A stretch of DNA of 61,014 nucleotides from the NCBI RefSeq assembly GCF_001418135.1, contig NZ_LIPQ01000016.1:1-61014 (forward strand), given 5' to 3'. Source of the DNA: Streptomyces aureus. Lineage in GTDB: Bacteria; Actinomycetota; Actinomycetes; Streptomycetales; Streptomycetaceae. The notes under the pieces were generated by a model. That model was not told the origin of the DNA, did no database searches, and saw only the letters and a program-made list of their open reading frames with translations. This document shows, in pieces, positions 36,767 through 53,833 of this stretch (position 1 is its first letter; every line of letters starts with the position of its first letter). The translations under genes were made by a program, and so were the position numbers.

Positions 36767-38617
36767 TCAGGGAACCCGCAGCGCCAGCAGGGCGACGTCG
36801 TCTTCGGGGGGTGGGTAGGCCATCCGGCTGGTGATCCGGCGGAGCAGTCCGGGCAGTGGACCGTCACCGTGGCGGACCAGCAGGCCCGCGAGCTGTGCGA
36901 TGGAGGCGTCGATGTCGTGGCCGCGTCGTTCGATGAGACCGTCGGTGTAGAGAAGCAGGGTCGAGCCAGGACTCAGTTCGCGCCGGTGCTCGGCGCGGGA
37001 AACGTTCCCGAGGGCCTGGTGGAGGAGGGCGTCGTGCTCCTCCAGGGGGTTCACCCGGCCGTCGGGGGCGCGCAGGAGCGGGGGTGGGTGGCCGGCGTTG
37101 GACCAGGTCAGCGTTCAGGGCATGCCGGGCGCGGCGGGGTCGAGGCGGGCGTGGACCAGGGTGCCGCCGGCCTCGATGGGCAGGACGGCGCAGGCGGCGT
37201 CCAGGGCGGCCAGGGCGGTTGCCGGGCTGTGCGGGGGATGGTCGAGGGTGGCCTGGCGGAGCATGCTGCGGATCTGCCCCATCACGGTTGCGGCGTGCAT
37301 GTCGTGGCCGGTGATGTCGCCGACGGTGACCATCAGTGCGGAGTCTGTGCCGGGTGACCTGGGCGGCAGGTGGTAGGCGTCGTACCAGTCCCCGCCGATC
37401 ATGTGATCGTCGGCGGCCGGCTGGTAGAAGGCACTGATCTCGATGCTGTTGGCGAGGGGCAGATCGGTGAGCATGGCCTCCTGGAGCTGGCGGGCGACGG
37501 AGATCCGCTCGTCGAGGTACTGGGCACGCTCCACCGCCTGCGCGATGTAACCGGAGGCTGCGGTGAGCGTGGCGCGCTCGGTGATGCCGACCTTGTGCTG
37601 TTTGGCCCAGCCGATGGCGAGGACTCCCAGCAGGGCGCGGCTTCCCCACAGCGGCAGGCACATCACGGTCGTGAGACCCAGCCGGTCGAACAGACCGACC
37701 GCCTCAGGGCTGTATTCGGCTACGAGGGTCTCGCGGTCCGGCACGAACACCGTCCGGCTTTCCCGCATGGCCCGGGCGCTGGGAAACGCGGCGCCCGTCG
37801 GAAGGGTGAGGACCGCGCGCTCCGCGGAGCTCGCGTCGTCCGGGTCCGGGATCCTGCGCAGCTCGTTCTGGTCGGCGACCAGCAGGCCGACGTACGAGGG
37901 CTTTCCGACGCCGGCGAGGAGGTCACGGAGGCGGCGCCGTACGTCCTCCAGCCCCGAGGTCTGGGCCAGTTCCTCCGAGGCCTTCAGCAGGAGCTCGGCG
38001 TGGTCCAGACCGGCCTGGGCCTCGTGCTCCAAGCGCTCCGCTTCGCTCCGCGCCCGCTCGGCGCCGGCGCGTGCGATCTCCAGTATCTTCTGGGCGGATT
38101 GACGCTGCGCCGACAGGATCCGCAAGCGCAGCTCGGCCGAGCAGGCCGCGGCCAGATCCTCCAGGTCGGCCAGTTCACCGGCGTCCCAGGGCCGCGGCTC
38201 GCGGTCGATCGCGCACAGGGCACCCAGGACCAGCCCTTCGCCGTCGGTGAGCGGCATTCCGCCGTACGCGGCCATCCCGAGGGACGGGACTGCCGGGCTG
38301 GTGCGCAGCCGCTCATCCGCACGGACGTCGGATACGACCATCGGCTGCCCCGAGACCACCACGTACCGGCAGGGCGAATGCGAGAGGGGCAGCGCCCGCT
38401 GTCCGGCCCAGGGCTCGGGCAGGCCGATCATGCCGGGCAGGATCTGACGGCCTTCCCCGGCCAGCGAGACGAAGGCCGCGGGTACGTGGAGCAGTCGTGC
38501 CACCAGCCGGGCGAACCGGTCCATCCCGGGGTCGGGGGCGGCCGACAGCCCGGCCAGCCGCAACACCCGCCGCCGTGCGGTTTCGCCCGCTCGTGGATCC
38601 CGGTCCTGGCGCGTCAT
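36767..38617 (-). pseudogene. GAF-GAF-PP2C (SpoIIE) phosphatase split by an in-frame TGA
   Basis: ATG 38617 follows GGAGGACAG. Residues about 15-160 are one GAF domain (FARLVARLLHVPAAFVSLAG), a coiled coil follows at about 165-215, then a second GAF to about 375 (GLTTVMCLPLWGSRALLGVL). The PP2C domain begins GGDWYDAYHLPPRSPGTDSA and continues VTVGDITGHDMHAATVMGQI. After LDPAAPGMP the frame meets TGA at 37115-37117. In the same frame the protein continues directly with TLTWSNAGHPPPLLRAPDGR and LLLYTDGLIERRG to the stop at 36767. Everything needed for a phosphatase is present except that one stop. Truncation would remove the last metal-site motifs. Confidence 0.85.
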
Positions 38618-38943
38618 CTGTCCTCCGGTCCCGCTGTCCCGAGGGCTTCTCAGCAGCATCGAGGGCTGCTCAGCAGCATCGTAGAACGGCTGGGGCGGAA
38701 CGACCGGTCGGTCCGAACCGGACGCAGCCGGCAGGTCTTCCGGCTCCGGTCGGCGGGCCGGGCTGTGGGCAGTCCGCGCACTGCGGCGATCAGCCCGCCA
38801 ATCGGCCGGACGCCCACCTCGAACGGGTGAGGTGCTGGCTCCGCCGCGCTGTCGTCCGGCTCACGCTGCCCGATGATCGCAGGCGGTTGGTGGACCGCGG
38901 TTCCCAGAGCCGCACCGTCCACCGCGACCCGGAAAGGCCGCCC
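38618..38943. promoter_or_regulatory. Divergent spacer before the hydrogenase operon
   Basis: 326 nt separate the PP2C gene (minus) from hypX (plus). It must carry the promoter of the 15-gene hydrogenase operon, as no other large gap interrupts it. GCGACCCGGAAAGGCCGCCC lies before ATG 38944 and supplies GGAAAGG as a ribosome site. A 20-bp tandem duplication sits near the PP2C start. No consensus promoter was recognised. Confidence 0.6.
38641..38680. repeat. 20-bp tandem direct repeat upstream of the PP2C gene
   Basis: GAGGGCTTCTCAGCAGCATC at 38641-38660 and GAGGGCTGCTCAGCAGCATC at 38661-38680 differ at one base. They lie 24 nt upstream of the PP2C start. Two helical turns per unit put both copies on one face of DNA, the spacing expected for a regulator binding side by side. 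Confidence 0.85.
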
Positions 38944-40665
38944 ATGCGCATCCTGCTCGTCGCCAGCAGCTTCAACAGCCTCACCCAGCGTGTCCTGGTC
39001 GAGCTGCGCGACCGCGGGCACACCGTTCCCGTGGAGGTCACCCACGACGGGGCTGCCGTGCGCGAGGCCGTGGCGCGCCACGCGCCCGACCTGGTCGTGG
39101 CCCCCATGCTGAAGGCCGTCGTGCCCCGCGATGTGTGGACGGCGCACCGTTGCCTGATCGTGCACCCGGGGCCCGTGGGCGACCGGGGCCCGTCCTCGCT
39201 GGACCACGCGATCCACGACGGGGTCGAGGAGTGGGGCGTCACCGTCCTCCAGGCCGACGAGGAGATGGACGCGGGCGACGTCTGGGCGACCGCCACCTTC
39301 CGCGTCCCGGAGGTCGGCAAGAGCGATCTGTACCGCAACGAGCTGTCCGACGCCGCGGTCGCCGCCGTGCTCCTCGCCGTCGAGAGGGTCGCCGCCGGAG
39401 CGGCACCGCGTCCGCAGACCGGTGAGGTCCGCGCCCGTCCCGCGCTCCGTCAGGAGGAGCGGCGGATCTCGTGGGGCGAGGACACCACCGAGAACGTCCT
39501 GCGCACCCTTCGGGCCGCCGACTCGCAGCCCGGTGTGCCGGACCGGCTGCTTGGCGCCGAGTGGTTCCTGCACGGCGGCCACGCGGAGGACGGCCTCCGC
39601 GGGCGGCCCGGGGCCCTCCTCGCGACCCGGGCGGGCGCGGTCTGCCGCGCCACCGTGGACGGCGCGGTGTGGATTCCCGAGCTCCGCGCCCGCACCGGCC
39701 GCGGCAGCCCGCGTGCCTGCAAGCTCCCCGCCACCCTGGCCCTGGCCGGCCGGCTGCCGGATCTCCCCGAGGTGCCGGCGCCCGCCGACCCGGCGCCGGG
39801 CCGGCGGACCTGGTCCGACATCCGGTACCGCGAGCAGGGGCCGGTCGGCGTTCTGTCCTTCGCGTTCCCCGGCGGGGCGATGAGCACCGACCAGTGCCGC
39901 CGCCTCCTGGCCGCGTACAAGGCCGCCTGCGGGCGCCCCACCTCCGTCCTGGTACTCGGCGGGCAGCGCGACTTCTTCTCCAACGGCATCCATCTGAACG
40001 TCATCGAGGCCGCCGCCGACCCTGCCGCGGAGTCCTGGGCCAACATCAATGCCATGAACGACCTGGTCGAGGCGGTTCTCACCACGACCGACCGGCTCGT
40101 CGTGAGCGCGATCGGAGGCAACGCCGCCGCAGGCGGGGTGATGCTCGCCCTCGCCGCCGACGAGGTCTGGTGCCGTTCGGGGTCGGTGCTCAATCCGCAC
40201 TACCGGCGCATGGGCCTGTACGGATCGGAGTACTGGACCCGGACCCTGCCCGGGAGGGTGGGCGAGGCCCTGGCCGCGCGCCTCACCGAAGAGGCCCGGC
40301 CGGTGTCCGCCGCGGCATCACTGGACATGGGTCTGGTGGACCGGGTCGTCGACTGCGGACCCGGGGAGTTCGCTGCCGAGATCACTCGATCGGCCCTTCA
40401 CCTGGCATCCGGTGGCGGTCTTCAGTCGCGGATCGCGGCGAAGAAGGCGGAGCACGAGCGCCGGGAGTCCGTCGTTCCCCTTGCGGCCCACCGTGAGCAG
40501 GAGCTCCTCCGGATGCGGTCGATCTTCGACGATCCCGCCGCGAGCTATCACGCACGGCGCCGGGCCTTCGTCCGGAAGGAGGCCCCCGAGCGGCGTTCCC
40601 GGACGGCCCAGGTGCGGGCGCGGACGGATCGGCCGACTGTTAAGCAAGACCTAGGCCCGAAATGA
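38944..40665 (+). CDS. hypX: HypX/HoxX, aerobic CO-ligand synthase
   Basis: A 573-residue two-domain protein. Residues 1-240 are formyl-THF transferase-like: MRILLVASSFNSLTQRVLVE and the catalytic-loop motif RCLIVHPGPVGDRGPSSLDH (His74). Residues about 300-500 are a crotonase fold (VGVLSFAFPGGAMSTDQCRR, QRDFFSNGIHLNVIE and VVSAIGGNAAAGGVMLALAA). HypX transfers the formyl group of 10-formyl-THF to CoA and decarbonylates formyl-CoA, giving the CO ligand of the NiFe site under air. Placement as first gene of the operon, 34 nt before hhyS, fits an aerobic hydrogenase. Confidence 0.95.
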   Translation: MRILLVASSFNSLTQRVLVELRDRGHTVPVEVTHDGAAVREAVARHAPDLVVAPMLKAVVPRDVWTAHRCLIVHPGPVGDRGPSSLDHAIHDGVEEWGVTVLQADEEMDAGDVWATATFRVPEVGKSDLYRNELSDAAVAAVLLAVERVAAGAAPRPQTGEVRARPALRQEERRISWGEDTTENVLRTLRAADSQPGVPDRLLGAEWFLHGGHAEDGLRGRPGALLATRAGAVCRATVDGAVWIPELRARTGRGSPRACKLPATLALAGRLPDLPEVPAPADPAPGRRTWSDIRYREQGPVGVLSFAFPGGAMSTDQCRRLLAAYKAACGRPTSVLVLGGQRDFFSNGIHLNVIEAAADPAAESWANINAMNDLVEAVLTTTDRLVVSAIGGNAAAGGVMLALAADEVWCRSGSVLNPHYRRMGLYGSEYWTRTLPGRVGEALAARLTEEARPVSAAASLDMGLVDRVVDCGPGEFAAEITRSALHLASGGGLQSRIAAKKAEHERRESVVPLAAHREQELLRMRSIFDDPAASYHARRRAFVRKEAPERRSRTAQVRARTDRPTVKQDLGPK

Positions 40666-40699: not shown

Positions 40700-41782
40700 A
40701 TGAGCGCAGTAAAGCCGGCCCCGGTCGAGGACCAGGGTGCCGCACCCGGCAGCGAAGAGAAGCCGATCCACATCCTCTGGATCAACGCGGGTCTGAGCTG
40801 CGACGGCGACTCGGTGGCCCTCACCGCCGCCATGCAGCCAAGCATCGAGGAGATCGCCCTCGCGGGGCTGCCAGGGCTGCCCAGGATCGCGGTCCACTGG
40901 CCACTGATCGACTTCGAGTGCGGCCCGGTGGGCGGCGCCGACACGTTCATCGAGTGGTTCTTCAAGGGGGAGCGGGGCGAGATCGACCCGTTCGTGCTGG
41001 TCGTCGAGGGTTCCATCCCGAACGAGGCCATCAAGCAGGAGGGCTACTGGAGCGGCTTCGGCGACAACCCGGAGACCGGTCAGCCCATCACCACCAGCGA
41101 GTGGATCGACCGGCTGGCACCCAAGGCCCTCGCCGTGGTCGCGATCGGCACCTGCGCCACGTACGGCGGCATCCACGCCATGGCGGGGAACCCGACCGGC
41201 GCGATGGGCCTCCCGGACTACCTCGGCTGGGACTGGAAGTCGCATGCCGGCATCCCCATCGTCTGCGTGCCCGGCTGCCCCATCCAGCCGGACAACTTCG
41301 CGGAGACGCTGACCTACCTGCTCTACCAGGCCGTCGGATCCGCGCCCATGATCCCGCTGGACGACAAGCTCCGTCCGACCTGGCTGTTCGGGGCGACCGT
41401 GCACGAGGGATGCGACCGGGCCGGCTACTACGAGCAGGGCCAGTTCGCGTCGACGTACGACTCGCCCAAGTGCCTGGTCAAGCTCGGCTGCTGGGGCCCG
41501 GTCGTCAAGTGCAACGTCCCCAAGCGCGGCTGGATGAACGGTATCGGCGGCTGTCCCAACGTCGGCGGCATCTGCATCGCGTGCACGATGCCCGGATTCC
41601 CGGACAAGTTCATGCCGTTCATGGACGAACCTCCCGGCGGCAAGGTCTCCAGCACCGCCAGCGGCGTGTACGGCTCCGTCATCCGCCGCCTTCGGACCAT
41701 CACGGCCAAGACCGTGGACAAGGAGCCGAAGTGGCGGCACACCGGCGAGCGCATCACCACCGGCTACCGGCCGCCCTGGTGA
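40700..41782 (+). CDS. hhyS: Group 1h [NiFe] hydrogenase small subunit
   Basis: A 360-residue iron-sulfur subunit after an AGGAGG ribosome site. The N-terminus has no Tat signal (no RRxFxK), as in group 1h enzymes. Proximal-cluster ligands are C34 and D37 in LSCDGDS, C152 (GTCATYGG) and C193 (PGCP); Asp replaces the Cys of the usual CxxC. H235, C238, C258 and C264 fit the distal cluster, and C271, C285, C292 and C295 a Cys-rich medial site. It passes electrons from HhyL to an unknown acceptor. The enzyme class oxidises atmospheric H2, mainly in spores. Confidence 0.96.
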   Translation: MSAVKPAPVEDQGAAPGSEEKPIHILWINAGLSCDGDSVALTAAMQPSIEEIALAGLPGLPRIAVHWPLIDFECGPVGGADTFIEWFFKGERGEIDPFVLVVEGSIPNEAIKQEGYWSGFGDNPETGQPITTSEWIDRLAPKALAVVAIGTCATYGGIHAMAGNPTGAMGLPDYLGWDWKSHAGIPIVCVPGCPIQPDNFAETLTYLLYQAVGSAPMIPLDDKLRPTWLFGATVHEGCDRAGYYEQGQFASTYDSPKCLVKLGCWGPVVKCNVPKRGWMNGIGGCPNVGGICIACTMPGFPDKFMPFMDEPPGGKVSSTASGVYGSVIRRLRTITAKTVDKEPKWRHTGERITTGYRPPW

Positions 41783-41848: not shown

Positions 41849-43657
41849 TTGACGAAGGGCACCACAGCGACCATGGCATCTCCGGCGAAGACGACGGGTG
41901 ACGGCTCCGGCCTTGTGGAGATGGCCTGGGATCCCATCACCCGGATCGTGGGCAGCCTCGGCATCCACACGAAGATCGATTTCAAGCAGAAGCGCGTCGC
42001 GGAGTGCTACAGCACGTCCTCCGTCTTCCGCGGCTACAGCGTCTTCATGCGGGGCAAGGACCCCCGCGACGCGCACTTCATCACCAGCCGCATCTGCGGC
42101 ATCTGCGGTGACAACCACGCGACCTGCTCCGTGTACGCGCAGAACATGGCGTACGGCGTGAAGCCCCCGCACCTCGGTGAGTGGATCATCAACCTCGGCG
42201 AGTCCGCGGAGTACATGTTCGACCACAACATCTTCCAGGAGAACCTGGTCGGGGTCGACTACTGCGAGAAGATGGTCCGCGAGACCAACCCCGGCGTCCT
42301 GGAGCTGGCCGAGCGCACCGAGGCGCCGCACGCCGCCGAACACGGCTACCGCACGATCGCGGACATCATGCGCTCCCTCAACCCCCTCGAAGGCGAGTTC
42401 TACCGCGAGGCGCTCCAGGTCAGCCGGTACACCCGGGAGATGTTCTGCCTCATGGAAGGGCGGCACGTCCACCCCTCCACCCTCTACCCCGGCGGTGTCG
42501 GCACGGTCGCGTCCGTGCAGCTGTTCACCGACTACATGAGCCGCCTCATGCGGTACGTGGAGTTCATGAAGCGGGTCGTCCCCCTCCACGACGACCTCTT
42601 CGACTTCTTCTACGAGGCGCTGCCCGGCTACGAGGAGGTCGGCCGCCGCCGTGTGCTGCTCGGCTGCTGGGGCGCACTCAACGACCCCGAGCACTGCGAC
42701 TTCACCTACGCCAACATGACCGACTGGGGCCGGCGGATGTTCGTCACCCCCGGTGTCGTCGTCGACGGCAAACTGGTGACCAACGACCTCACCGAGATCA
42801 ACCTCGGCATCCGCATCCTGCTCGGCAGCTCGTACTACGAGGACTGGCAGGGCCAGGAACAGTTCGTCACCCACGATCCCCTCGGCAACCCGGTCGACCC
42901 GCGCCACCCGTGGAACCAGCACACGATCCCGGCCCCGCAGAAGCGGAACTTCGACGACAAGTACAGCTGGGTCATGTCCCCGCGATGGTTCGACGGCAAG
43001 GACCACCTGGCGCTGGACACCGGTGGCGGCCCCATCGCGCGCCTGTGGTCCACCGCGCTCTCCGGCCTCGTCGACATCGGCTACATCAAGGCCACCGGGC
43101 ACAGCGTCGTCATCAACCTCCCCCGGACGATGACCAAGCCGGAGACCACCTTCGAGTGGAAGATCCCGAAGTGGAGCAACGCCCTGGAGCGCAACCGCGC
43201 CCGGACGTACTTCCAGGCGTACGCGGCGGCCGTCGCCCTGCACTGCGCCGAGAAGGGCCTGGAGGAGGTCCGCGCCGGACGCACACAGACGTGGGAGAAG
43301 TTCGAAGTGCCCGACGAGTCCATCGGCGTCGGTTTCACGGAGGCCGTACGTGGCGTCCTCTCGCACCACATGGTGATCAGGGACGGCAAGATCGCCAACT
43401 ACCACCCCTATCCGCCGACGCCGTGGAACGCCTCCACGCGGGACACGTTCGGTACCCCCGGCCCGTACGAGGACGCGGTGCAGAACACCCCGATCTTCGA
43501 GGAGAACACGCCCGAGAACTTCAAGGGCATCGACATCATGCGCGCCGTGCGCAGCTTCGACCCCTGTCTGCCGTGCGGCGTCCACATGTACACGGGCAAC
43601 GGCAGGACCGTGAAGCAGATGCACGTGCCCACCGGCCTGAGCGGTCTGGCCGGATGA
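41849..43657 (+). CDS. hhyL: Group 1h [NiFe] hydrogenase large subunit
   Basis: A 602-residue catalytic subunit from TTG 41849; an ATG at 41873 would remove eight residues and is equally possible. The L1 motif ITSRICGICGDNHATCSV (C83, C86) and L2 motif FDPCLPCGVHMY (C573, C576) hold the NiFe(CN)2CO centre. A 23-residue tail follows the terminal His, to be removed by the protease encoded downstream. WDPITRIVGSLGIHTKID near residue 27 is the usual large-subunit start. The next start overlaps the stop by ATGA (43654-43657). Confidence 0.96.
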   Translation: MTKGTTATMASPAKTTGDGSGLVEMAWDPITRIVGSLGIHTKIDFKQKRVAECYSTSSVFRGYSVFMRGKDPRDAHFITSRICGICGDNHATCSVYAQNMAYGVKPPHLGEWIINLGESAEYMFDHNIFQENLVGVDYCEKMVRETNPGVLELAERTEAPHAAEHGYRTIADIMRSLNPLEGEFYREALQVSRYTREMFCLMEGRHVHPSTLYPGGVGTVASVQLFTDYMSRLMRYVEFMKRVVPLHDDLFDFFYEALPGYEEVGRRRVLLGCWGALNDPEHCDFTYANMTDWGRRMFVTPGVVVDGKLVTNDLTEINLGIRILLGSSYYEDWQGQEQFVTHDPLGNPVDPRHPWNQHTIPAPQKRNFDDKYSWVMSPRWFDGKDHLALDTGGGPIARLWSTALSGLVDIGYIKATGHSVVINLPRTMTKPETTFEWKIPKWSNALERNRARTYFQAYAAAVALHCAEKGLEEVRAGRTQTWEKFEVPDESIGVGFTEAVRGVLSHHMVIRDGKIANYHPYPPTPWNASTRDTFGTPGPYEDAVQNTPIFEENTPENFKGIDIMRAVRSFDPCLPCGVHMYTGNGRTVKQMHVPTGLSGLAG

Positions 43658-44211
43658 GCACGGCCACCGCCGAAGCGGCGGGCCGACGCGTCGAGGAGGT
43701 CCTGGACCGGCTGGCCGAGAACGGCGACGCCGAGGCCTGCGCGGCCGCGGAGGAAGTCGTACGCGTCCTCATGGAGTTCTACGGCAGCGGCATCGCCCGC
43801 GTGATCGAGCTCCTCGGGAGTCCCGCAGCCCGTCCGCCCGCCGACCCGCTGGCTCCGCTGCTCGCGGACGAACTCGTCGCGAGCCTCCTCAACCTGCACG
43901 GACTGCACCCCGAGGACACGCCGACCCGGATCGACCGCGCCCTGTCCGCCCTGCCGCAGCCCGTGGAGAACGCCGGATTCGACACGGCGACCGGCGTGCT
44001 GCGGCTGCGGGTCACCGCCTCGACCGGCTGCGGCTGCTCCGGCACCCAGGAGTCCGTCCGGCAGGCGGCCGTGGACGCCCTCGCCTGCTTCGCGCCCGAG
44101 GTCACCGGCGTGGAGCTGGAGACCGGCGCCCCACGCGAGCCGGCGCTGCTCCAGATCGGCACCCGTCCGTCCCTCGCGGGCGCGGACGGCCGCTCGTCGG
44201 CCGCCCTGTGA
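43654..44211 (+). CDS. NifU-like (Nfu domain) protein
   Basis: A 185-residue protein. The C-terminal half is an Nfu-type domain (residues about 108-160: GVLRLRVTASTGCGCSGTQE followed by VRQAAVDALACFAPEVTGVE) with CGC in place of the classic CxxC cluster loop. The N-terminal 100 residues are helical. Nfu proteins carry a labile Fe-S cluster to targets, so a role in filling HhyS is likely (inference). It overlaps hhyL by 4 nt and the next gene by GTGA. Confidence 0.85.
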   Translation: MSTATAEAAGRRVEEVLDRLAENGDAEACAAAEEVVRVLMEFYGSGIARVIELLGSPAARPPADPLAPLLADELVASLLNLHGLHPEDTPTRIDRALSALPQPVENAGFDTATGVLRLRVTASTGCGCSGTQESVRQAAVDALACFAPEVTGVELETGAPREPALLQIGTRPSLAGADGRSSAAL

Positions 44212-44867
44212 ACGGGCCGCCGAACGGCGCCGCGCGACCCCCGCGGCCCACGGGCCTGCGCCGGTTCACCGCCCCGCGTCCGCCCCGCGAGGAACGGTGC
44301 GAACTGTGCGGGGCGGCACTCGCGGCCGAAGCGCGGCACCCGCACCTCGTCGACACGGACAAGCGGGCCCTGGTGTGCGCATGCGGCCCGTGCGCGCAGC
44401 TGATGGACCGCTCCGCCGCCTCCCCGGGCCGCTTCAGGGCGGTGCCCGGCCGCTTCCTGAGCGACCCGGGGCACCGGATCGACGACCGGGCATGGGAGTC
44501 GCTGCGGATCCCGGTCTCCGTCGCGTTCTTCTTCCGCAATTCCGCCCTCGACCGCCCGGTGGCGCTCTACCCGAGCCCCGCCGGTGCCACCGAGAGCGAG
44601 CTGGAGGACGACGCCTGGCAGTCCGTCCTGGAAGCCACCCGGCTGGCCGCCCACCTCGAACCCGACGTGGAGGCCCTGTTGCTCCGCCGCCACGAGGGCC
44701 GCACCGAGTGCTTCCTCGTACCGATCGACCTCTGTTACGAACTGGTGGGCCGCATGCGACTGCACTGGCAGGGGTTCGACGGGGGCGCGGAGGCGCGGGC
44801 CGCCCTCGACGCGCTCTTCACCCATGTACGCGGCCTGGCGCGCGAACCGCAGGGGAGCCGGCCGTGA
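44208..44867 (+). CDS. DUF5947-like protein with zinc-finger-like cysteines
   Basis: A 219-residue protein, start GTG 44208 overlapping the NifU-like stop. An early Cys set, ERCELCGAALAAEARHPHLV and LVCACGPCAQLMD (CxxC ... CxCxxC), looks like a zinc or Fe-S site. It is followed by PVSVAFFFRNSALDRPVALY, YPSPAGATESELEDDAWQSV and a helical end. I associate this pattern with DUF5947, found beside group 1h hydrogenases. Its role is unknown. Location between Nfu-like and DUF6084-like genes implies a job in assembling or anchoring the enzyme. Confidence 0.82.
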   Translation: MNGPPNGAARPPRPTGLRRFTAPRPPREERCELCGAALAAEARHPHLVDTDKRALVCACGPCAQLMDRSAASPGRFRAVPGRFLSDPGHRIDDRAWESLRIPVSVAFFFRNSALDRPVALYPSPAGATESELEDDAWQSVLEATRLAAHLEPDVEALLLRRHEGRTECFLVPIDLCYELVGRMRLHWQGFDGGAEARAALDALFTHVRGLAREPQGSRP

Positions 44868-45502
44868 CCGAGTTCTCCTTCAGCTGCACCGACGTCCGCG
44901 CCGATCCCTACGCGGCCGGCCCCACGCTCGTGTTCCGGCTGCGGATCACCGCCACCGGCGGCGCCCGGGTGCACGCGATGGCCCTGCGCTGCCAGATCCG
45001 CATCGAACCCGCCCGGCGCGGCTACGACGACCATGAGGCCGCAGCCCTGGGCGACCTCTTCGGCGAGCGCTCCCGGTGGGGCAGCAGCCTCAACCCGGTG
45101 CAGTTCGCCCAGGCCTCCGTCATGGTGCCGGGCTTCACCGGCGAGATCGAGACCGACCTCGTCGTACCGTGCACCTACGACACCGACATCGCCGCGTCCA
45201 GGTACTTCCGGGCGCTCTCCGACGGTGACGTCCCGCTGCTTCTGCTCTTCTCCGGCACCGCGTTCACCGGCGCCGGCGGCTTCCACGTCGAGCCCGTTCC
45301 CTGGGACAAGGAGGTCTCCCATCGCATGCCCGTGAAGGTGTGGCGCGAGATGATCGACCAGCACTTCCCCGGCTGCGGATGGATCAGGCTCCCGGGCGAC
45401 GCGATGGACGCCCTGCTCGCCTACCGCTCGCGCCGGGCCCTCCCGTCGTGGCAGGCCACCGTCGAGTCCCTGCTCGAAGCGGCGGGGGAGAGGACAGCAT
45501 GA
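44864..45502 (+). CDS. DUF6084-like protein
   Basis: A 212-residue mostly beta-strand protein: FSFSCTDVRADPYAAGPTLV, FRLRITATGGARVHAMALRC, VMVPGFTGEIETDLVVPCTY and LLLLFSGTAFTGAGGFHVEP. It reads as a beta sandwich followed by a helical end (VKVWREMIDQHFPGCGWIRL). No catalytic motif. I associate it with DUF6084, a companion of the group 1h operon. GTG 44864 overlaps the DUF5947-like stop, and the next gene overlaps by ATGA. Confidence 0.82.
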   Translation: MTEFSFSCTDVRADPYAAGPTLVFRLRITATGGARVHAMALRCQIRIEPARRGYDDHEAAALGDLFGERSRWGSSLNPVQFAQASVMVPGFTGEIETDLVVPCTYDTDIAASRYFRALSDGDVPLLLLFSGTAFTGAGGFHVEPVPWDKEVSHRMPVKVWREMIDQHFPGCGWIRLPGDAMDALLAYRSRRALPSWQATVESLLEAAGERTA

Positions 45503-46893
45503 CCACCGTCGCCTTCAGCCCCGGCACCGAGGCGCGGTTCGCCGTCGCCCGGCACGTCGCCGACGCCGTCCTCTTCGAGGGGTACGTGCTCTACCCGTAC
45601 CGTGCGTCGGCCGCCAAGAACCGGCTCCGCTGGCAGTTCGGCGTCCTGGTGCCGCCGTCCTGGAGCGCCGCCGCCGAGGAGCACGACTTCCAGCACACCG
45701 AGTGCCTCATGGAGCCCAGGACCGGCGCCGAACTCGCCGTGGAGGTCCGCTTCCTGCGCGCTCAGCGGCGCACCGTCGAAGAACTCCGTGCGGACGGGAC
45801 ATACGCCCCCACCGACGAACTGCGCCTGGCCGACCGGGTCCTGGTGCCCTGGGACGAGGGCGTCGAGGAGCGGGTCACCCTCGCCGTCCCCGTCGCCGAG
45901 CTACGCGGTGACGGCGTCGCCCTGCCGTTCACCCGCCCCGCGGCCGACGAGGTCGAGCAGGTCACCGACGACGGACGCGTCCTCGGCCGCCTCGTACGCC
46001 GGCGCGAGGAGATCAGCGGTACGGTGCGGATCTCGGCCGCGGAAATCGACGGCCCGTACCGTGTCGAGCGCCTCTCGGTCACGGTGGAGAACACCAGCAC
46101 CTGGACCGCCGAACGGGACACCGACCGCCACGCGGCACTGCCGTACTCCCTCGTCGCCGCGCACACCCTGCTCCGCCTCGACGGCGGCTCGTTCCTGTCG
46201 ATGACAGACCCGCCGGAATGGGCCAAGGGCGCCGTCGCCGCCTGCCGCAACCTGCACACCTGGCCCGTCCTGGCCGGCGAACCCGGCCGTGACGACCTGA
46301 TGCTCTCCTCGCCGATCATCCTGGAGGACCATCCGGCCATCGCACCCGAGAGCCCCGGCGCCCTCTACGACGCGACCGAGATCGACGAGATCCTCGCCCT
46401 GCGCACGGCGGCCCTCACCGACGAGGAGAAGCGCGAGGCCAGGGGGACCGACGCCCGCGCGGCGGCGGTGATCGAACTCGCGGACACCATGCCGCCCGAG
46501 GTCCTCGAACGCCTGCACGGAGCAGTGCGGAGCCTCCAGAGCGTCACGGGGAGCCCGAAGCCGGCCGGAAACATCCTCGAACCGGAGACGCCCTGGTGGG
46601 ACCCGGGCGGCGACACCGGTGTCGATCCGGACAACGACCACGTCCTCGTCGACGGACGCGCCGTCCGCGCGGGCAGCAGGGTCGTCCTGCGTCCACGGCT
46701 CCGCCGCACGGACGCCCAGGACCTGTTCCTGGACGGACGCAGCGCGCTGGTCGAGGCGGTCCTCCACGACGTCGACGGAGGAGTCCACATCGCGGTCACC
46801 GTGGAGGACGACCCGGGCGCCGACATCCGCCGCGAACAGGGCCGGTTCCTCTACTTCCAGCCCGACGAGGTCGAAGCCCTGGAGGACATGTGA
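45499..46893 (+). CDS. Unknown 464-residue protein of the hydrogenase operon
   Basis: I do not recognise a family. The protein is soluble, with an opening VLFEGYVLYPYRASAAKNRL, a central strand-rich part (YRVERLSVTVENTSTWTAER, LVAAHTLLRLDGGSFLSMTD) and a C-terminal part with VLVDGRAVRAGSRVVLRPRL and GVHIAVTVEDDPGADIRREQ. No Cys cluster, ATP motif or membrane helix is seen. It is coupled to its neighbours by ATGA and GTGA overlaps, so it must be needed in fixed ratio with the structural or maturation proteins. Confidence 0.85.
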   Translation: MTTVAFSPGTEARFAVARHVADAVLFEGYVLYPYRASAAKNRLRWQFGVLVPPSWSAAAEEHDFQHTECLMEPRTGAELAVEVRFLRAQRRTVEELRADGTYAPTDELRLADRVLVPWDEGVEERVTLAVPVAELRGDGVALPFTRPAADEVEQVTDDGRVLGRLVRRREEISGTVRISAAEIDGPYRVERLSVTVENTSTWTAERDTDRHAALPYSLVAAHTLLRLDGGSFLSMTDPPEWAKGAVAACRNLHTWPVLAGEPGRDDLMLSSPIILEDHPAIAPESPGALYDATEIDEILALRTAALTDEEKREARGTDARAAAVIELADTMPPEVLERLHGAVRSLQSVTGSPKPAGNILEPETPWWDPGGDTGVDPDNDHVLVDGRAVRAGSRVVLRPRLRRTDAQDLFLDGRSALVEAVLHDVDGGVHIAVTVEDDPGADIRREQGRFLYFQPDEVEALEDM

Positions 46894-47414
46894 ACGGCCC
46901 CGGGCCCGAGGCCGCAACGCCCGGCACGGCCCGCACCCTCGTGGCCGGGGTGGGCAACATCTTCCTCGGCGACGACGGCTTCGGCGTGGAGACCCTGCGG
47001 CGACTCACCCGTGAGGAACTCCCCGTCTCCGTCGAGCTGGCCGACGTCGGCGTCCGGGGCGTCCACCTCGCCTACGAGCTCCTCGAAGGCTGGGACACCC
47101 TCGTCCTCGTCGACGTCACCGCCCGCGGCGGTGCACCGGGGACGCTCTATCTGATCGACGCCTCGGCGGCCGACGAGCGCGGCACGGAGCCCGCGCCGCT
47201 CGACGGCCACCGGATGACGCCCGACGCCGTCCTCGCCCTGCTCGACACCCTGTGCGCCGGAACCGGGGCCGCGCCGCCGCGGCGGATCCTCGTCGTCGGC
47301 TGCGAACCGGCCTGCCTCGACGAGGGCATCGGGCTCAGCCCGCAGGTCGCCGCGGCCGTGCCCGAAGCCGTGCGCATGGTGACCGAACTGGTCCGTCAGG
47401 AAGCCGTCGTATGA
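46890..47414 (+). CDS. Hydrogenase maturation protease
   Basis: A 174-residue nickel-dependent endopeptidase of the HyaD/HybD type. The motif LVAGVGNIFLGDDGFGVETL carries the first acidic Ni ligand, TLVLVDVTARGG the second, and DGHRMTP supplies the His. It would cut the 23-residue tail of HhyL after nickel insertion. GTG 46890 overlaps the previous stop by GTGA, and a 46-residue membrane peptide overlaps its own stop. Confidence 0.93.
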   Translation: MNGPGPEAATPGTARTLVAGVGNIFLGDDGFGVETLRRLTREELPVSVELADVGVRGVHLAYELLEGWDTLVLVDVTARGGAPGTLYLIDASAADERGTEPAPLDGHRMTPDAVLALLDTLCAGTGAAPPRRILVVGCEPACLDEGIGLSPQVAAAVPEAVRMVTELVRQEAVV

Positions 47415-47551: not shown

Positions 47552-47690
47552 CGCACCCGCGGGTTCGGTGGCGGCGGCTGCACCGAATGGACGACACCGA
47601 CGTCCGGTCCCGGCGTGCCGGGCGATCCCCCGCCACCCCCCGTTCTCTAATGGCGCCCGAGACCCACCCGGGCGCCCAGGACGGAGACCG

Positions 47691-48086
47691 ATGCACGAGA
47701 TGTCCCTCGCGGTCGCCGTCGTCGACCAGGTCGAGACCGCGGCGAGGTCTCGGGGGGCCGTCGGTGTCAGCAGCATCGAGCTGGAAGTGGGCGAGCTGGC
47801 CGGCGTCGTCGCCGACGCCCTCGCCTTCTGCTTCGAACTCGCCTGCGCCGGAACCGTCGTCGAAGGCGCCGAGCTGATCACCCGTACCGTCCCCGGAACC
47901 GCGCGCTGCACCCCGTGCGCCGAGGTCTGGCCGGTCGGCATGCCGCCGCGACTGCTCTGCCCCGGCTGCGGCGCCGCGGCCGACGGAATCGTCTCCGGCC
48001 GCGAACTCCAGATCCGGGAGGTCCGCTGGGCCGACCCGGAGGCGCCGCGCGAAGAACAGCACCAACCCATCACCGAGAAGAGCTGA
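47691..48086 (+). CDS. hypA: HypA nickel chaperone
   Basis: A 131-residue protein starting MHEMSLAVAVVDQVETAARS; His2 and the N-terminal amine bind Ni(II). A zinc site is formed by CTPC (near residue 73) and CPGC (near 91). SIELEVGELAGVVADALAFC is the usual middle block. HypA delivers nickel to the large subunit together with HypB. About 140 nt separate it from the membrane peptide, the largest gap in the operon, so a secondary promoter may lie there. Confidence 0.95.
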   Translation: MHEMSLAVAVVDQVETAARSRGAVGVSSIELEVGELAGVVADALAFCFELACAGTVVEGAELITRTVPGTARCTPCAEVWPVGMPPRLLCPGCGAAADGIVSGRELQIREVRWADPEAPREEQHQPITEKS

Positions 48087-48088
48087 GC

Positions 48089-48784
48089 ATGTGCCGAGCA
48101 GTCGATCTCCAGCGTGCCGTTCTCGCGAAGAACGAGGCCGCGGCACAGATCCTGCGCACCGAACTGACCGCCCGCGGCACCACCGTGGTCAACCTGCTCT
48201 CCAGCCCCGGCAGCGGCAAGACCGCCCTGCTGGAGCGCGAACTCCGCCTCGCCGGCGAACGGGGCGTCAGCGCCGCCGCGCTCACCGCCGACCTCGCCAC
48301 CGAGAACGACGCCCGGCGCCTGGCCCGCTCGGGCGTCCCCGTCAAGCAGGTGCTCACCGACGGCCTCTGCCATCTGGAGGCCGACATGGTCGCCCGGCAC
48401 TTGCACGACTGGCTGCCCGAGTCGACCCGGCTGCTGTTCGTCGAGAACGTCGGCAACCTCGTCTGCCCCGCCGGCTACGACCTGGGCGAGTCGCTCCGCG
48501 TCGTGCTCGCCTCGGTCACCGAGGGAGAGGACAAGCCGCTCAAGTACCCCACCGCGTTCGGCCTCGCCCAGCTGGTGATCGTCACCAAGACCGACATGGC
48601 CGAGGCCGCGGAGTTCGACGAGACGGCCTTCCGCGCCAACGTGGAGCAGGTCAACCCCGGCGTCGAGGTCGTTCTCAGCTCGGTGCGTGACGGCCGGGGA
48701 GCAGGCACGCTGCTCGACCGGGCCCTCGCCACGGCTGCGGGGAACCGAGCCCACACCCCGGTGATGGCACGGGCCGGCGCGTGA
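48089..48784 (+). CDS. hypB: HypB GTPase for nickel insertion
   Basis: A 231-residue SIMIBI GTPase. The P-loop is LLSSPGSGKT (36-45), the switch block is AALTADLATENDARRLA, metal-site cysteines are in TDGLCHLEADM and ENVGNLVCPAGYDLGE, and the base motif is VIVTKTDMAE. The His-rich nickel-storage stretch and the N-terminal CxxxCGC found in other HypB are absent. HypB energises nickel transfer from HypA. Its last bases overlap hypF (GTGA at 48781). Confidence 0.95.
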   Translation: MCRAVDLQRAVLAKNEAAAQILRTELTARGTTVVNLLSSPGSGKTALLERELRLAGERGVSAAALTADLATENDARRLARSGVPVKQVLTDGLCHLEADMVARHLHDWLPESTRLLFVENVGNLVCPAGYDLGESLRVVLASVTEGEDKPLKYPTAFGLAQLVIVTKTDMAEAAEFDETAFRANVEQVNPGVEVVLSSVRDGRGAGTLLDRALATAAGNRAHTPVMARAGA

Positions 48785-51234
48785 CCACGGCGCGACCCGG
48801 ACCCGCACCCGCCACGGCCCTGCGGCGCAGCCGTGTCGTCGTCCGCGGCGTCGTGCAAGGTGTGGGTTTCCGGCCCTTCGTCTACGCCCTCGCCACCGGC
48901 TTGCGGCTGTCCGGCCACGTCACCAACACGGCGGACGGCGTCGTCGCGGAGGTGGAGGGAGACCCCACGGCCGTCGCGACCTTCTGCGCCCGCCTCGCGC
49001 CCGACGCCCCGCCCCTGGCCCGGGTCGAGTCGGTCGAGGCGGCCGACGTCACCACGAGCGGCGGCAGCGGATTCACGATCGCGCCCTCCCGTCAGGGCGG
49101 CTCCGTCCGCACCCTCGTCCCGCCGGACACCGCGACCTGCGACGACTGCCTCGCGGAGCTCGCGGACCCGGCCGACCGGCGGTATCTGCACCCCTTCATC
49201 ACGTGCACCCACTGCGGCCCGCGCTTCACCATCGTCACGGGACTGCCCTACGACCGGGCCCACACCACCATGGCCGGCTTCCCCATGTGTCCGGACTGCG
49301 CCCGGGAGTACGCGGACCCGGCCGACCGGCGCTTCCACGCGCAGCCCGTCGCCTGCCCCCGCTGCGGCCCCCGGCTGCGGCTGGTCACCGCGCCAGGCGG
49401 CCCCGCGTCCTCCGGTACGGAGCCGTCCCCCGACCACGCCCGGGCCGACCCCGGCGGCGATCCCGGGGCCGACCCGATCGCCGCCGCACGCAGGATGCTC
49501 GCCTCCGGCGCGATCCTCGCCGTCAAGGGCCTCGGCGGCTACCACCTGGCCTGCGACGCGACGAACCCCCACGCGGTGGCCGAACTGCGCCGCCGCAAGG
49601 CACGCGGTGACAAACCGTTCGCGATGATGGCCGCGGAACTCGCCGACATCGAGCCCCTCGCTCACCTCTGCCCGCTCGAACGAGAACTCCTCACCGGCAA
49701 CGTCCGCCCCGTCGTGCTGCTGCGCCGCCGCGACGACGCGCGGCCGCGCCAAGGGGCCGCGCCTGCGGGGGCGGTGGCGCCGGGCAGCCCGGACCTCGGC
49801 TTCATGCTCCCGTACACCCCGGTGCACCATCTCCTCCTCGGCCTCGGCACGGAGGACGGTGAAGGGCCCCGGCTGCTGGTGATGACCAGCGGCAATCTCG
49901 CGGGCGAGCCCATCGTCACGGACGACGGGGAGGCACTGACCAGACTCGCCGGTCTGGCGGACGCCTGGCTGCTGCACGACCGGCCGATCCATGTGCCCTG
50001 CGACGACTCCGTCGTCCGCGTCTGCGACGGCGAGCAGCTGACGCTGCGCCGCTCCCGGGGCTATGCGCCGCTGCCGGTCGCGCTGCCCGTGGAGGTCGCC
50101 CCCGCCCTCGCCGTCGGAGGGGACCTCAAGAACGCCTTCTGCCTCGGCGACGGACGCCAGGCCTGGCTCTCCGCCCACATCGGCGACATGGACGACCTCG
50201 CCACCCAGCTCGCCCTCACCTCCGCCGAGTGGCGGCTCGAGTCCGTCACGGGCGTGCGGCCCGGACTGCTCGCCGCCGACCGCCACCCCGCCTACCGGTC
50301 CACCCGCTGGGCCCGCGAACACGCGGAGGGACGGCCCGTCGTCCCCGTACAGCATCACCACGCGCACGTGGCGGCGGCGATGGCCGAGAACGGCCTCGAC
50401 GGCACGGCTCCCGTGATCGGCGTCGCCTTCGACGGCACCGGCTACGGCCTCGACGGCGCCGTATGGGGCGGTGAGTTCCTGCTCGCGGACTACGCCGGGT
50501 TCGAGCGGTTCGCGCATCTGACCTACGTACCCCTGCCCGGCGGCGACGCGGCCGTACGACGGCCCTACCGCATGGCCCTGGCCCACCTTCGCGCCGCGGG
50601 TCTCGCCGCCGACAGCGCTCTGCCCTGCACGCGAGCCTGCCCGCCCGGAGAACTGCCCGTACTGGAAAGGCAGTTGGCGGGAGGGGTGAACTGCGTGCCC
50701 ACGTCCAGCATGGGCCGCCTGTTCGATGCCGTCTCGTCCCTCGTGGGGATCTGCCACCACGCCGGATACGAGGCGCAGGCCGCGATCGAGCTGGAGGCCG
50801 CGGCCCTGCGCGCACCCGACGTGGCCGAGGACGGACGATACGTCTTCCGGCTCGGTTCGCCGCGGTCCGGCGCCCCGCTCACCGCCGACCCCGCACCCCT
50901 TCTCCGGGCGGTGGCCGCCGACGTGCTGGAGGGGGCCCCGACAGCCGTCGTCGCGGCGCGGTTCCACCGCGCCGTGGCCCGACTCGTGCGTACGGTCTGC
51001 GTCGCCGCCCGCGGCGGGACCGGTGTGGAGACCGTGGCCCTGACCGGGGGAGTGTTCGCCAACACGGTGCTCTCCTCGGCCTGCGCCGAAGGGCTGCGGG
51101 AAGACGGCTTCACCGTGCTGCGCCACCGCTCGATCCCGCCGAACGACGGCGGTCTGGCGCTCGGCCAGCTCGTTGTGGCCGCCCGGATCACGGACCGAGC
51201 GGCCCCCGCCACGCCGCGACGAGAGCGGCATTGA
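48781..51234 (+). CDS. hypF: HypF carbamoyltransferase
   Basis: An 817-residue protein of standard length with four parts in order. The acylphosphatase domain opens with VVVRGVVQGVGFRPFVYALA. The double zinc finger comprises CDDC, CTHCGPRFTI, CPDC and CPRCGP. The YrdC-like ATP domain starts near 236 (SGAILAVKGLGGYHLACDAT), and the Kae1-like domain has VPVQHHHAHVAAAMAENGLD and GVAFDGTGYGLDGAVWGGEF. It turns carbamoyl phosphate and ATP into a carbamoyl group placed on the HypE C-terminal Cys. Confidence 0.96.
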   Translation: MTTARPGPAPATALRRSRVVVRGVVQGVGFRPFVYALATGLRLSGHVTNTADGVVAEVEGDPTAVATFCARLAPDAPPLARVESVEAADVTTSGGSGFTIAPSRQGGSVRTLVPPDTATCDDCLAELADPADRRYLHPFITCTHCGPRFTIVTGLPYDRAHTTMAGFPMCPDCAREYADPADRRFHAQPVACPRCGPRLRLVTAPGGPASSGTEPSPDHARADPGGDPGADPIAAARRMLASGAILAVKGLGGYHLACDATNPHAVAELRRRKARGDKPFAMMAAELADIEPLAHLCPLERELLTGNVRPVVLLRRRDDARPRQGAAPAGAVAPGSPDLGFMLPYTPVHHLLLGLGTEDGEGPRLLVMTSGNLAGEPIVTDDGEALTRLAGLADAWLLHDRPIHVPCDDSVVRVCDGEQLTLRRSRGYAPLPVALPVEVAPALAVGGDLKNAFCLGDGRQAWLSAHIGDMDDLATQLALTSAEWRLESVTGVRPGLLAADRHPAYRSTRWAREHAEGRPVVPVQHHHAHVAAAMAENGLDGTAPVIGVAFDGTGYGLDGAVWGGEFLLADYAGFERFAHLTYVPLPGGDAAVRRPYRMALAHLRAAGLAADSALPCTRACPPGELPVLERQLAGGVNCVPTSSMGRLFDAVSSLVGICHHAGYEAQAAIELEAAALRAPDVAEDGRYVFRLGSPRSGAPLTADPAPLLRAVAADVLEGAPTAVVAARFHRAVARLVRTVCVAARGGTGVETVALTGGVFANTVLSSACAEGLREDGFTVLRHRSIPPNDGGLALGQLVVAARITDRAAPATPRRERH

Positions 51235-51244
51235 GGAGACACCC

Positions 51245-51562
51245 ATGTGCCTGGCGGTACCCGGAAGAGTGCTGGACGTCGAGGACCGGGACGGTACCCG
51301 GATGGCCACGGTCGACTTCGGCGGCGTGGTCAAGGAGGTGTGTTTGGAGTACCTGCCGGACCTGAAACCCGGCGAGTACGCCATCGTCCATGTGGGCTTC
51401 GCCCTTCAGAAGCTCGACGAGGAGTCGGCCAAGCGGACGCTGGAGCTGTTCGAGTCCCTCGGCCTGCTCCAGGAGGAGTTCGGGGACCCGTGGGAGGCCG
51501 CCGAGGCCGCGGTGAGCGAGTGGCAGGCGCAGGACGACGTCCACGGAGAGGTGCGGCCGTGA
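51245..51562 (+). CDS. hypC: HypC scaffold chaperone
   Basis: A 105-residue protein with GAGGAGACACCC before ATG 51245. [14 protein letters not shown] has the invariant Cys2 that holds the Fe(CN)2CO group. [20 protein letters not shown] and [20 protein letters not shown] are the usual OB-fold strands, and the C-terminal helix is longer than the family average (about 25 extra residues). It carries the iron group with HypD and docks on HhyL. It overlaps hypD by GTGA (51559-51562). Confidence 0.95.
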
Positions 51563-52743
51563 AGTACATCGACGAGTTCCAGAACCCGGACCTGGCACGT
51601 CGGCTGCTCGACGAGATCAAGGCGACGGCGACCCGCCCCTGGGCCCTGATGGAAGTCTGCGGAGGCCAGACGCACAGCATCATCCGGCACGGCATCGACC
51701 AGCTCCTGCCCTCCGAGATCGAGCTGATCCACGGCCCGGGATGTCCGGTCTGCGTCACTCCGCTGGAGATGATCGACAAAGCCCTGGAGATCGCCTCCCG
51801 GCCAGGGGTGATCTTCTGCTCCTTCGGTGACATGCTCCGCGTCCCCGGCACGGGCCGCGACCTGTTCCAGGTCCGCGGGCAGGGTGGCGACGTCAGGGTG
51901 GTCTACTCCCCGCTGGACGCGCTGCGGATCGCCGAGCAGAACCCGGACCGGGAGGTGGTCTTCTTCGGCATCGGCTTCGAGACCACGGCGCCACCCAACG
52001 CGATGACGGTCCATCAGGCGCGCAAGCGGAACATCCGCAACTTCAGTCTGCTCGTGTCCCACGTCCGCGTCCCCCCGGCGATCGACGCGATCATGCGGTC
52101 CCCGGACTGTCGCGTCCAGGGTTTTCTCGCGGCCGGACACGTCTGCAGCGTGATGGGCACGGCCGAGTACCCCGAGCTCGCGCAACGCCACCAGGTGCCG
52201 ATCGTGGTCACCGGATTCGAGCCACTGGACATCCTGGAAGGCGTACGCAGGACCCTGCTTCAGCTGGAGCGGGGCGAGCACACGGTCGAGAACGCCTATC
52301 AGCGAGCCGTGACGGCCGAGGGCAATCCGGCGGCGCAGGCGATGCTGAGTGACGTCTTCGAGATCACCGACCGGGCCTGGCGCGGCATCGGCGTCATCCC
52401 GGACAGCGGCTGGCGCCTGTCCGAACGCTACCGTGACCACGACGCCGAGTACCGTTTCTCCGTCGAAGGAATCGTCACTCGCGAGCCCGCCGAGTGCCGC
52501 AGCGGCGAGGTCCTCCAGGGCCTGCTGAAACCGAACGAGTGCGAGGCCTTCGGCACCACCTGCACGCCTCGCTCCCCGCTCGGCGCCACGATGGTGTCCA
52601 GCGAGGGCGCCTGCGCCGCCTACTACCTCTACCGGCGGCTCGACGCGGGAACCCCGGGACCGCGACCCCCCGCGGCGGCCCGCGTGGCCTCTGGAACCCC
52701 GTCCCCGGCCACCGCTTCCCTGGAGGGCAGCCCCCTTGCCTGA
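51559..52743 (+). CDS. hypD: HypD Fe(CN)2CO assembly protein
   Basis: A 394-residue protein with all family signatures: [59 protein letters not shown] and, near the end, [20 protein letters not shown] with the [4Fe-4S] cysteines. HypD holds a cluster and provides the platform where cyanides are placed on iron with HypC and HypE. The C-terminal 35 residues are an Ala-, Pro- and Thr-rich extension. It overlaps hypE by 8 nt. Confidence 0.96.
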
Positions 52744-53833
52744 CACCGTCAGCACCACCCCGGCCGTCGACGCCGCACAGCCGGCACCCGACATGCTCGC
52801 CTGGACCTGCCCGGCGCCACTGCGCGACCAGACACGCATCGTCATGGGCCACGGCGGCGGAGGCGCGCTGTCCGCCGAGCTGATCGAGCACGTCTTCGCG
52901 CCCGCCTACGGCGGACCGGCCCTCGCACACACCGCCGACGCGGCTGAGGTCCGCATCGGCGGCGCCCGCCTGGCGTTCTCCACGGACTCCTTCGTGGTGC
53001 GTCCGCTGTTCTTCCCCGGCGGCAGCATCGGCGACCTCGCCGTCAACGGCACCGTGAACGACCTCGCCATGATCGGCGCCCGGGCGAGCCACCTCTCCTG
53101 CGGGTTCATCCTGGAGGAAGGCGTCGAGACCCACGTGGTCGCCCGTGTCGCGCAGGCCCTCGGCGCGGCGGCGCGCGTGGCCGGCGTTCAGGTCGTCACC
53201 GGGGACACCAAGGTCGTGGAGGCCGGTCACGGCGACGGCATCTACATCAACACCTCGGGGGTCGGGCTGATCCCCGACGGAGTCGACCTGCGTCCGCAAC
53301 GGGTGGTGCCCGGAGACGTGGTGATCGTGAGCGGCCCGATCGGTATGCACGGCGTGGCGATCATGAGTGTGCGGGAGGGTCTCGAATTCGGTGTCGAGAT
53401 CACCAGCGACTGCGCACCGCTCGGTGGCCTCGTCGAGGCGATGCTCGCCGTCACGCGGGACCTGCACGTGCTGCGCGACCCCACACGCGGGGGCCTGGCC
53501 GCCTCGCTGAACGAGATCGCGGCCGCCTCGGGCACGGGCGTCGTCATCCAGGAGCGGGCCGTTCCGATCCCCGAAGCGGTCGCCAACGCCTGCGCGGTGC
53601 TCGGACTCGACCCGATGTACGTGGCGAACGAGGGCAAGCTCGTGGCCTTCGTCCCGCGAGAGCACGCGGACGCCGTACTCGCCGCGATGCGCGCCCACCC
53701 CTCGGGTACCGAGGCGGCGGTGATCGGCGAGGCGGTCGAGACCCATCCGGGCATGGTGGTGGCTCGTACCGGACTCGGCGGAACCCGGGTCGTCGACCTG
53801 CCGCTCGGAGAACAGCTGCCGCGGATCTGCTGA
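52736..53833 (+). CDS. hypE: HypE thiocyanate-forming ATPase
   Basis: A 365-residue PurM-like protein starting at TTG 52736 inside the hypD end (GGAGGGCAGCCCCC precedes it). [20 protein letters not shown] and [20 protein letters not shown] are the ATP-binding blocks. The C-terminus ends in LGEQLPRIC, the mobile tail whose last Cys takes the carbamoyl group and is dehydrated to thiocyanate. The 30-residue start before IVMGHG is longer than usual. The operon ends here, against a convergent gene 2 nt away. Confidence 0.96.

Follow-up and report, generated by a model that had tools for sequence, protein, structure and literature searches.

Much of the uptake of atmospheric H2 by soils is attributed to group 1h [NiFe]-hydrogenases (PMC7174314), and one such enzyme is encoded in a 61,014-nucleotide stretch of Streptomyces aureus DNA (contig NZ_LIPQ01000016.1; hereafter the window). 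Three genes for uncharacterised proteins stand between its large-subunit gene, hhyL, and the gene of its maturation protease, and the question raised by this locus is what these proteins do for the enzyme. A first-pass annotation of the sequence had proposed assembly factors or an electron-transfer scaffold particular to group 1h. The three genes were found to be conserved as a block with group 1h enzymes. We see about an even chance that they encode enzyme-specific assembly factors, with the 464-residue protein (P464) and the protease acting on the large subunit, and the DUF5947 protein and the NifU-like protein HhyE probably acting on the small subunit. Two modules are suggested by the pairings found in natural fusions and by the genes that travel together in broken operons. 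Assembly rather than mere electron carriage appears likely because two of the genes co-occur almost constantly with the enzyme and are, in some bacteria, fused to operon neighbours.

A conserved block of three genes

All three genes are real and, like every feature located below, lie on the forward strand. The first encodes a DUF5947 protein of 219 residues (44208..44867; PF19372, 6.8e-71, 238 bits against a gathering cut-off of 25) and the second a DUF6084 protein of 212 residues (44864..45502; PF19562, 2.9e-96, 321.5 bits against a gathering cut-off of 25). The third encodes P464 (45499..46893); all candidates scored in a search for its relatives (at least 7999) were relatives. As had been proposed for one of the proteins, P464 matches no known family by sequence: no Pfam family was found at E up to 5 and no NCBIfam family at E up to 0.1, in searches whose HMMER filters drop most weak matches.

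The placement of the block between hhyL and the protease holds on one side. The gene of the HycI/HupD-type protease (46890..47414; TIGR00072, 2.6e-33, 115.1 bits against a cut-off of 47.45) adjoins P464, but after hhyL a gene for a truncated, NifU-like HhyE of 185 residues (43654..44211) intervenes. It was recognized by matches to full-length HhyE and by alignment; alone, it has no Pfam match. All five junctions from hhyL through the protease gene are 4-base ATGA/GTGA start/stop overlaps, those flanking the three genes lying at 44208, 44864, 45499 and 46890. A scan of 43500-47600 found no terminator-like site and no promoter-like site of the sigma-70 type, the sole promoter type scanned. The overlaps were said to tie production of the three proteins to that of the large subunit; the coupling to hhyL would run via the NifU-like gene, because that gene lies between hhyL and the DUF5947 gene. 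In relatives, with starts chosen mechanically, overlaps were found in 71 of 103 DUF5947/DUF6084, 81 of 109 DUF6084/P464, 55 of 103 P464/protease and 37 of 98 HhyE/DUF5947 gene pairs. Three Rubrobacter-like loci (L009, L018, L020) have an extra small low-complexity open reading frame (ORF) between DUF5947 and DUF6084, and L101 has a gap there too.

The window enzyme belongs to group 1h. Its hhyL (41873..43657) encodes the motifs L1 TSRICGICGDNH and L2 SFDPCLPCGVH, which are given as those of group 1h [NiFe]-hydrogenases (PMC5364354), and the closest solved chain is HofG of structure 5aa5 (1094.5 bits). The small subunit is encoded upstream by hhyS (40700..41782; PF01058, PF14720).

Among 131 Streptomyces genomes, HhyL, DUF5947 and P464 were each found in 60 and all three in 59 (the sets were compared by hand, and a truncated P464 in genome G182 was counted). 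The exceptions are G107, which has a 122-residue HhyL remnant and neither DUF5947 nor P464, and G395, in which DUF5947 and P464 lie at contig ends and HhyL was not found. DUF6084 occurs in 41 of the 131 genomes, always with HhyL, and 19 genomes have DUF5947 and no DUF6084. In these 19, HhyL, where found, is 71-74% identical to that of the window; in 17, one contig carries both P464 and, downstream of it, hhyL, and the other two (G388 and G395) are broken across contigs. Four genomes with similar HhyL identity (G312, G337, G339 and G351) nevertheless carry DUF6084. On an HhyL tree of 91 rows the loss of DUF6084 (L030, L031, L146) is a single change. DUF6084 is absent from one Streptomyces lineage, and is probably an auxiliary factor which that lineage does without.

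A set of 296 Actinomycetota genomes contained DUF6084 in 27, DUF5947 in 26 and P464 in 28. By hand count, 28 of the 296 have an HhyL of at least 65% identity over at least 100 residues, and DUF5947 is present in 25 of these; one of the three without it is G107, which has an hhyL remnant. More distant HhyL relatives, of 36-46% identity, occur in 13 genomes (G076, G081, G111, G114, G130, G141, G163, G200, G216, G221, G236, G269 and G289), none of which has DUF5947. G130 has an additional 73-residue fragment at 59% identity. In G216, DUF6084 and P464 were found at the end of a contig. None of the three genes was found in the 19 kb searched around two distant HhyL loci, L063, which has an HhyE-like gene, and L064, which has no accessory gene.

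Scanning named genomes with an alignment of DUF6084 extended the pattern. In the best 80 of 346 relatives, which were kept as loci, P464 was found in 80, the protease in 77, DUF5947 in 76, HhyE in 72 and HhyL in 70, and in all 80 the genes that were found follow one another colinearly on a single strand. Of the ten loci without HhyL, nine lie on contigs that end before it would be reached; the tenth is L082, from Gandjariella. These loci, whose titles include metagenome-assembled genomes of Chloroflexi, Acidobacteria and Proteobacteria, and plasmids of Cupriavidus and Methylocystis are the evidence beyond Actinomycetota. The description of the genes as particular to group 1h holds well across the genomes searched, yet the group as a whole includes an exception. 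In Methylacidiphilum fumariolicum SolV, the genes hhyS, hhyL and hupD of a group 1h enzyme are clustered (PMC5364354), and the organism reportedly encodes no homologues of the hypothetical proteins found in the group 1h operon of Pyrinomonas (PMC7174314).

Fusions and broken-up operons

P464 and the protease form one ORF in two fetched loci (L132 and L142), and HhyE and DUF5947 form one in L075, from a complete genome. Two fused queries were then compared with a protein database, the P464-protease query covering residues 330-619. Among the best 120 of its 157 matches, 105 have the P464 N-domain followed by the protease, 13 have no protease match and two have the protease only. Among the best 120 of 1314 matches to the HhyE-DUF5947 query, all 120 have HhyE followed by DUF5947. 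The fused or separate state changes at least 16 times on a P464-protease tree of 198 rows, 90 of them fusions in which more than 200 N-domain residues are aligned, and at least six times on an HhyE-DUF5947 tree of 223 rows; both trees are quick ones without support values, so that weak forks may inflate the counts. Fused forms are recurrent yet a small minority of the families. One of the two protease-only matches, P0245, is a maturation protease fused to HypF in a protein of 934 residues. Two P464-protease fusion ORFs (P0170, 413-443; P0177, 455-483) end in a DUF6893 segment, a 32-position family, perhaps a small membrane peptide gene that follows the protease.

One alternative is that the fusions and the linkage reflect tight, overlapping packing only, and that the three proteins have unrelated small jobs. 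Both recurrently fused pairs are indeed adjacent and often overlapping genes, and fusions are rare. However, the most-overlapping pairs are unfused in the fetched loci: no shared ORF was found for DUF5947-DUF6084 (0/103) or DUF6084-P464 (0/109) despite their commoner overlap, although this control is small. DUF5947 and P464 are moreover kept where the operon is broken up, and we regard packing as very improbable. Raw counts of shared ORFs in the fetched loci are two for HhyE-DUF5947 and three for P464-protease; of these five, L127 (N bases) and L086 (a frame-shifted P464 end) are doubtful and, like L039 (a NifU-low complexity-DUF6084 ORF) in the raw data, were not relied on. In L039, from genome G042, a long Arg/Asp repeat connects the NifU-like protein to DUF6084 in one reading frame and DUF5947 is missing, possibly an assembly artefact. 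Shared ORFs for hhyS-hhyL and hhyL-HhyE were also found in L057 and L130, one being a remnant and the other uninspected.

Broken-up operons show which genes travel together. In the Streptomyces genome G369, hhyS directly adjoins DUF5947, with an 8-base overlap by the mechanical ORF list, and P464, hhyL and HhyE form a second cluster about 53 kb off, on the opposite strand. Among 265 other relatives of G369, 99 of which have matches, none spans the hhyS-DUF5947 junction, with two candidates scored per genome. In Gandjariella (G419), P464, the protease and a second DUF6084 lie apart from a group made up of hhyS, hhyL, HhyE, DUF5947 and one DUF6084, so that DUF5947 also remains with HhyE and hhyL there. 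In these few cases, P464 accompanies the large subunit or the protease wherever the operon is split, and DUF5947 accompanies the small subunit. In the Gandjariella locus L082, two ORFs (978-2630) whose products by eye resemble sugar-isomerase (SIS) proteins lie upstream of DUF6084, P464 and the protease.

Conserved cysteines and the electron-acceptor alternative

As had been noticed, one of the three proteins has a Cys-rich motif. It lies in DUF5947 and is predicted to bind metal (C31xxC34-x9-H44xH46-x10-C57xC59xxC62, 44298..44393), with each position kept in 104-106 of 107 rows. A regular-expression search recovered the whole motif from 102 of 106 proteins. Among the other four, two are truncated, one carries a frame shift and the last differs by a longer spacer. 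The cysteines of HhyE vary. Among 96 complete HhyE proteins of fetched loci (counted without four incomplete proteins and L063), the NifU CxxC is present in 80 and absent from 16, and a second, C-terminal domain with two CxxC is present in 51. On the HhyL tree the former changes at least eight times and the latter at least ten. In the window HhyE, a CxC replaces the CxxC of the NifU-like domain and the protein ends before the C-terminal domain, so that neither the NifU-like CxxC nor the two C-terminal CxxC by which Islam et al. (2019) recognize HhyE was found. Truncated HhyE forms have been reported (PMC6883350), and HhyE without CxxC was also found in Cupriavidus necator and Methylocystis. 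Since the DUF5947 motif is nearly invariant and the HhyE cysteines are variable, the constant Cys/His site of the set, judged by sequence, is in DUF5947, and attention moves from the changeable cysteines of HhyE to DUF5947.

DUF5947 was also compared with HhyE itself. The proposal that it is the C-terminal domain of full-length HhyE was ruled out because L007 and L015 encode both as separate proteins. A profile match between the families fell in probability from 94.8 to 28.9 once fused rows were left out of the alignments; because the higher value came from alignments containing fused rows, no homology is claimed. The AlphaFold2 model of DUF5947 has a predicted local distance difference test (pLDDT) score of 90.2.

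These cysteines and histidines suit a second explanation, in which the enzyme would pass its electrons directly to DUF5947, with the other proteins keeping DUF5947 in place or connecting it to the membrane. Such a role was proposed for PHG067 of C. necator, to which MSMEG_2717 is said to be homologous (PMC6883350, quoting earlier C. necator work). Judged from the C. necator gene order, PHG067 is probably DUF5947. Besides its five almost invariant Cys and two His, DUF5947 is fused in some bacteria to HhyE, whose second domain carries two CxxC in the 51 proteins counted above; fused HhyE forms can match Rieske, and in G369 DUF5947 adjoins hhyS. On the other side, CxxC-HxH-CxCxxC also fits a structural zinc site, and no DUF5947-like chain is in the 5aa5 crystal. 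In Mycobacterium smegmatis without HhyE, hydrogenase activity was reported to be lost and was not restored by an artificial acceptor (PMC6883350), a result that fits assembly better than electron transfer. An acceptor role for DUF5947 appears rather unlikely to us.

Assembly weighed against known systems

Under the assembly reading, P464 and the HupD-type protease would handle the HhyL precursor, with P464 holding unprocessed HhyL and presenting its C-terminal tail to the protease. This tail extends 23 residues beyond CxxCxxH in the window and 18-28 residues in 97 complete sequences with the motif, which include the distant L063 and L064; five more had no match. The AlphaFold2 model of P464 (pLDDT 83.6) includes a large beta domain (residues 28-275), a candidate DrmA-like one, and its C-terminal, putatively SH3-like domain (about residues 364-462; 46588..46884), a separate gene in some lineages, may be a detachable docking module. 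DUF5947 would act with HhyE in the service of HhyS, as a metal-stabilised factor that fits or protects the iron-sulfur chain of HhyS or joins HhyS to HhyL.

A third explanation sees the three proteins as loosely held structural subunits or a scaffold, which would fix the cytosolic enzyme near the membrane and tune its affinity for H2. The constant position of the genes beside the structural genes and the large beta domain of P464 would suit this, as would the report that the SolV enzyme has high affinity only while it is on the membrane (PMC7174314). However, that enzyme is membrane-associated where homologues are reportedly lacking (PMC7174314), none of the three proteins is in the 5aa5 crystal, and a fusion with a protease is easier to square with maturation than with a finished complex. 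We consider this scaffold improbable. Of the two roles first proposed, assembly factor or electron-transfer scaffold, the fusions and rearrangements favour the former; they also suggest different roles for the three proteins.

Several observations weigh against the assembly reading. The shares of fusions among the database matches are not frequencies, because the queries were themselves fusions; in fetched loci clean fusions are rare (P464-protease 2/103, HhyE-DUF5947 1/98), the genes that fuse already stand next to each other in the operon, and certain ORFs from metagenomes could be erroneous. In G369, which alone is contiguous, HhyE stays with hhyL and not with DUF5947, and G395 and G436, where hhyS and DUF5947 each lie at a contig end, are compatible with the G369 arrangement without proving it. 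Two draft assemblies have HhyL and no DUF5947 match: in G184 hhyL breaks off, and in G042 DUF6084 follows a low-complexity stretch. In the Streptomyces G182 (L033), hhyL and its tail are intact, but P464 stops near residue 260 and a search of the genome at E 0.001 gave no protease gene; its operon may be decaying or rewired. Proteases of other hydrogenases manage without P464, for example in the 19 kb around L063, whose HhyL is 43% identical. The SolV enzyme is active despite the reported lack of homologues (PMC5364354, PMC7174314). A fold search with DUF5947, for whose N-terminus zinc ribbon, rubredoxin and B-box were the candidates, gave no confident match, and its metal binding is a prediction. 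Lastly, HhyE is reported to migrate with HhyL and HhyS on native gels, as would suit a subunit (PMC6883350, citing earlier work), and the authors of that paper deem electron transfer most plausible.

The closest known system is plasmid pHG1 of C. necator H16 (hofKG, PHG066-070), which has, in the order seen in the window, a large subunit, a NifU-family protein, DUF5947, DUF6084, a hypothetical protein, a protease and hyp genes with overlapping starts and stops. It differs in phylum and in hyp order, and the gene before the large subunit, presumably hofK, is annotated as HypE-like. In an earlier account PHG066-069 appear as four ORFs beside hofKG with no known function, and PHG066, PHG067 and the protease as highly expressed in glycerol-grown cells (PMC4377017). 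No 5aa5 chain is among the matches of DUF5947, DUF6084 or P464 up to E 1, although C. necator encodes all three, and the three proteins are therefore not part of the crystallised enzyme. Searched by sequence against solved structures, each gave weak matches only, the best (E 0.002) being of DUF5947 to mitochondrial ribosomal proteins. The conserved hypothetical genes hhaABC of Thermomicrobium roseum belong to the hhySL operon and are upregulated with it (PMC6776052), and MSMEG_2716-2714 of M. smegmatis are listed together with the hydrogenase genes in microarray data (PMC5445863); the passages on them assign neither set a function. Four such coding sequences lie next to hhyL in methanotrophs (PMC12319191). 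HucE and HhyE were described as putative iron-sulfur proteins (PMC6883350); the NifU-like HhyE of the window likewise directly precedes DUF5947, to which HhyE is fused in other bacteria, but DUF5947 is a separate family and the window HhyE is truncated and without CxxC.

In the literature retrieved under the names DUF5947 and DUF6084, nothing on function was found, and the sole mention of DUF6084 concerns aurodox biosynthesis. Already in print are the gene set as ORFs of unknown function (PHG066-069; hhaABC) and PHG067 as a proposed acceptor. New are the co-occurrence counts, the recurrent fusions, the constancy of the DUF5947 motif compared with HhyE, and the G369 split. The membrane-bound hydrogenase of C. 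necator has accessory proteins of its own (HoxO, Q, R, T and V), enzyme-specific helpers for aerobic assembly, and the three proteins would act in a similar way. They differ in that the window HhyS, whose first 30 residues hold no twin-arginine pair, offers no such signal to chaperone. DUF5947, DUF6084 and P464 match no named accessory family in Pfam or NCBIfam, libraries in which models for each of HoxO, Q, R, T and V were not confirmed.

A bolder form of the assembly reading is that group 1h enzymes are built by a dedicated two-armed machinery, different from the one that serves other [NiFe]-hydrogenases. P464 would then be a protease-coupled checkpoint at which the large subunit is inspected and released, and DUF5947 and HhyE, as a metal-binding arm, would complete the small subunit in air. 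We advance this tentatively, as possible but rather less than probable. If the two-module reading is right, single deletions in C. necator H16 would give opposite, easily scored defects (unprocessed HofG versus incomplete HofK), and producing these oxygen-insensitive enzymes in another host would depend on the whole set.

Further genes of the window surround these. Directly upstream of hhyS lies a HypX-like gene (38497..40665, exact start uncertain), with formyltransferase and enoyl-CoA hydratase domains (PF00551, PF02911, PF00378); its position 5' of hhyS would be expected if the CO ligand is made aerobically. Downstream of the protease, Pfam, NCBIfam and sequence identify hypA (about 47691), hypB, hypF, hypC (51245-51562), hypD (from 51559) and hypE (47691..53833 in all). 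Among the hyp genes of C. necator and Methylocystis, SIS-domain genes were also found. Near the hydrogenase operon, at 56410-57711, the window encodes an eCIS core domain protein (PF13699, 1.3e-25), possibly cargo of an extracellular contractile injection system.

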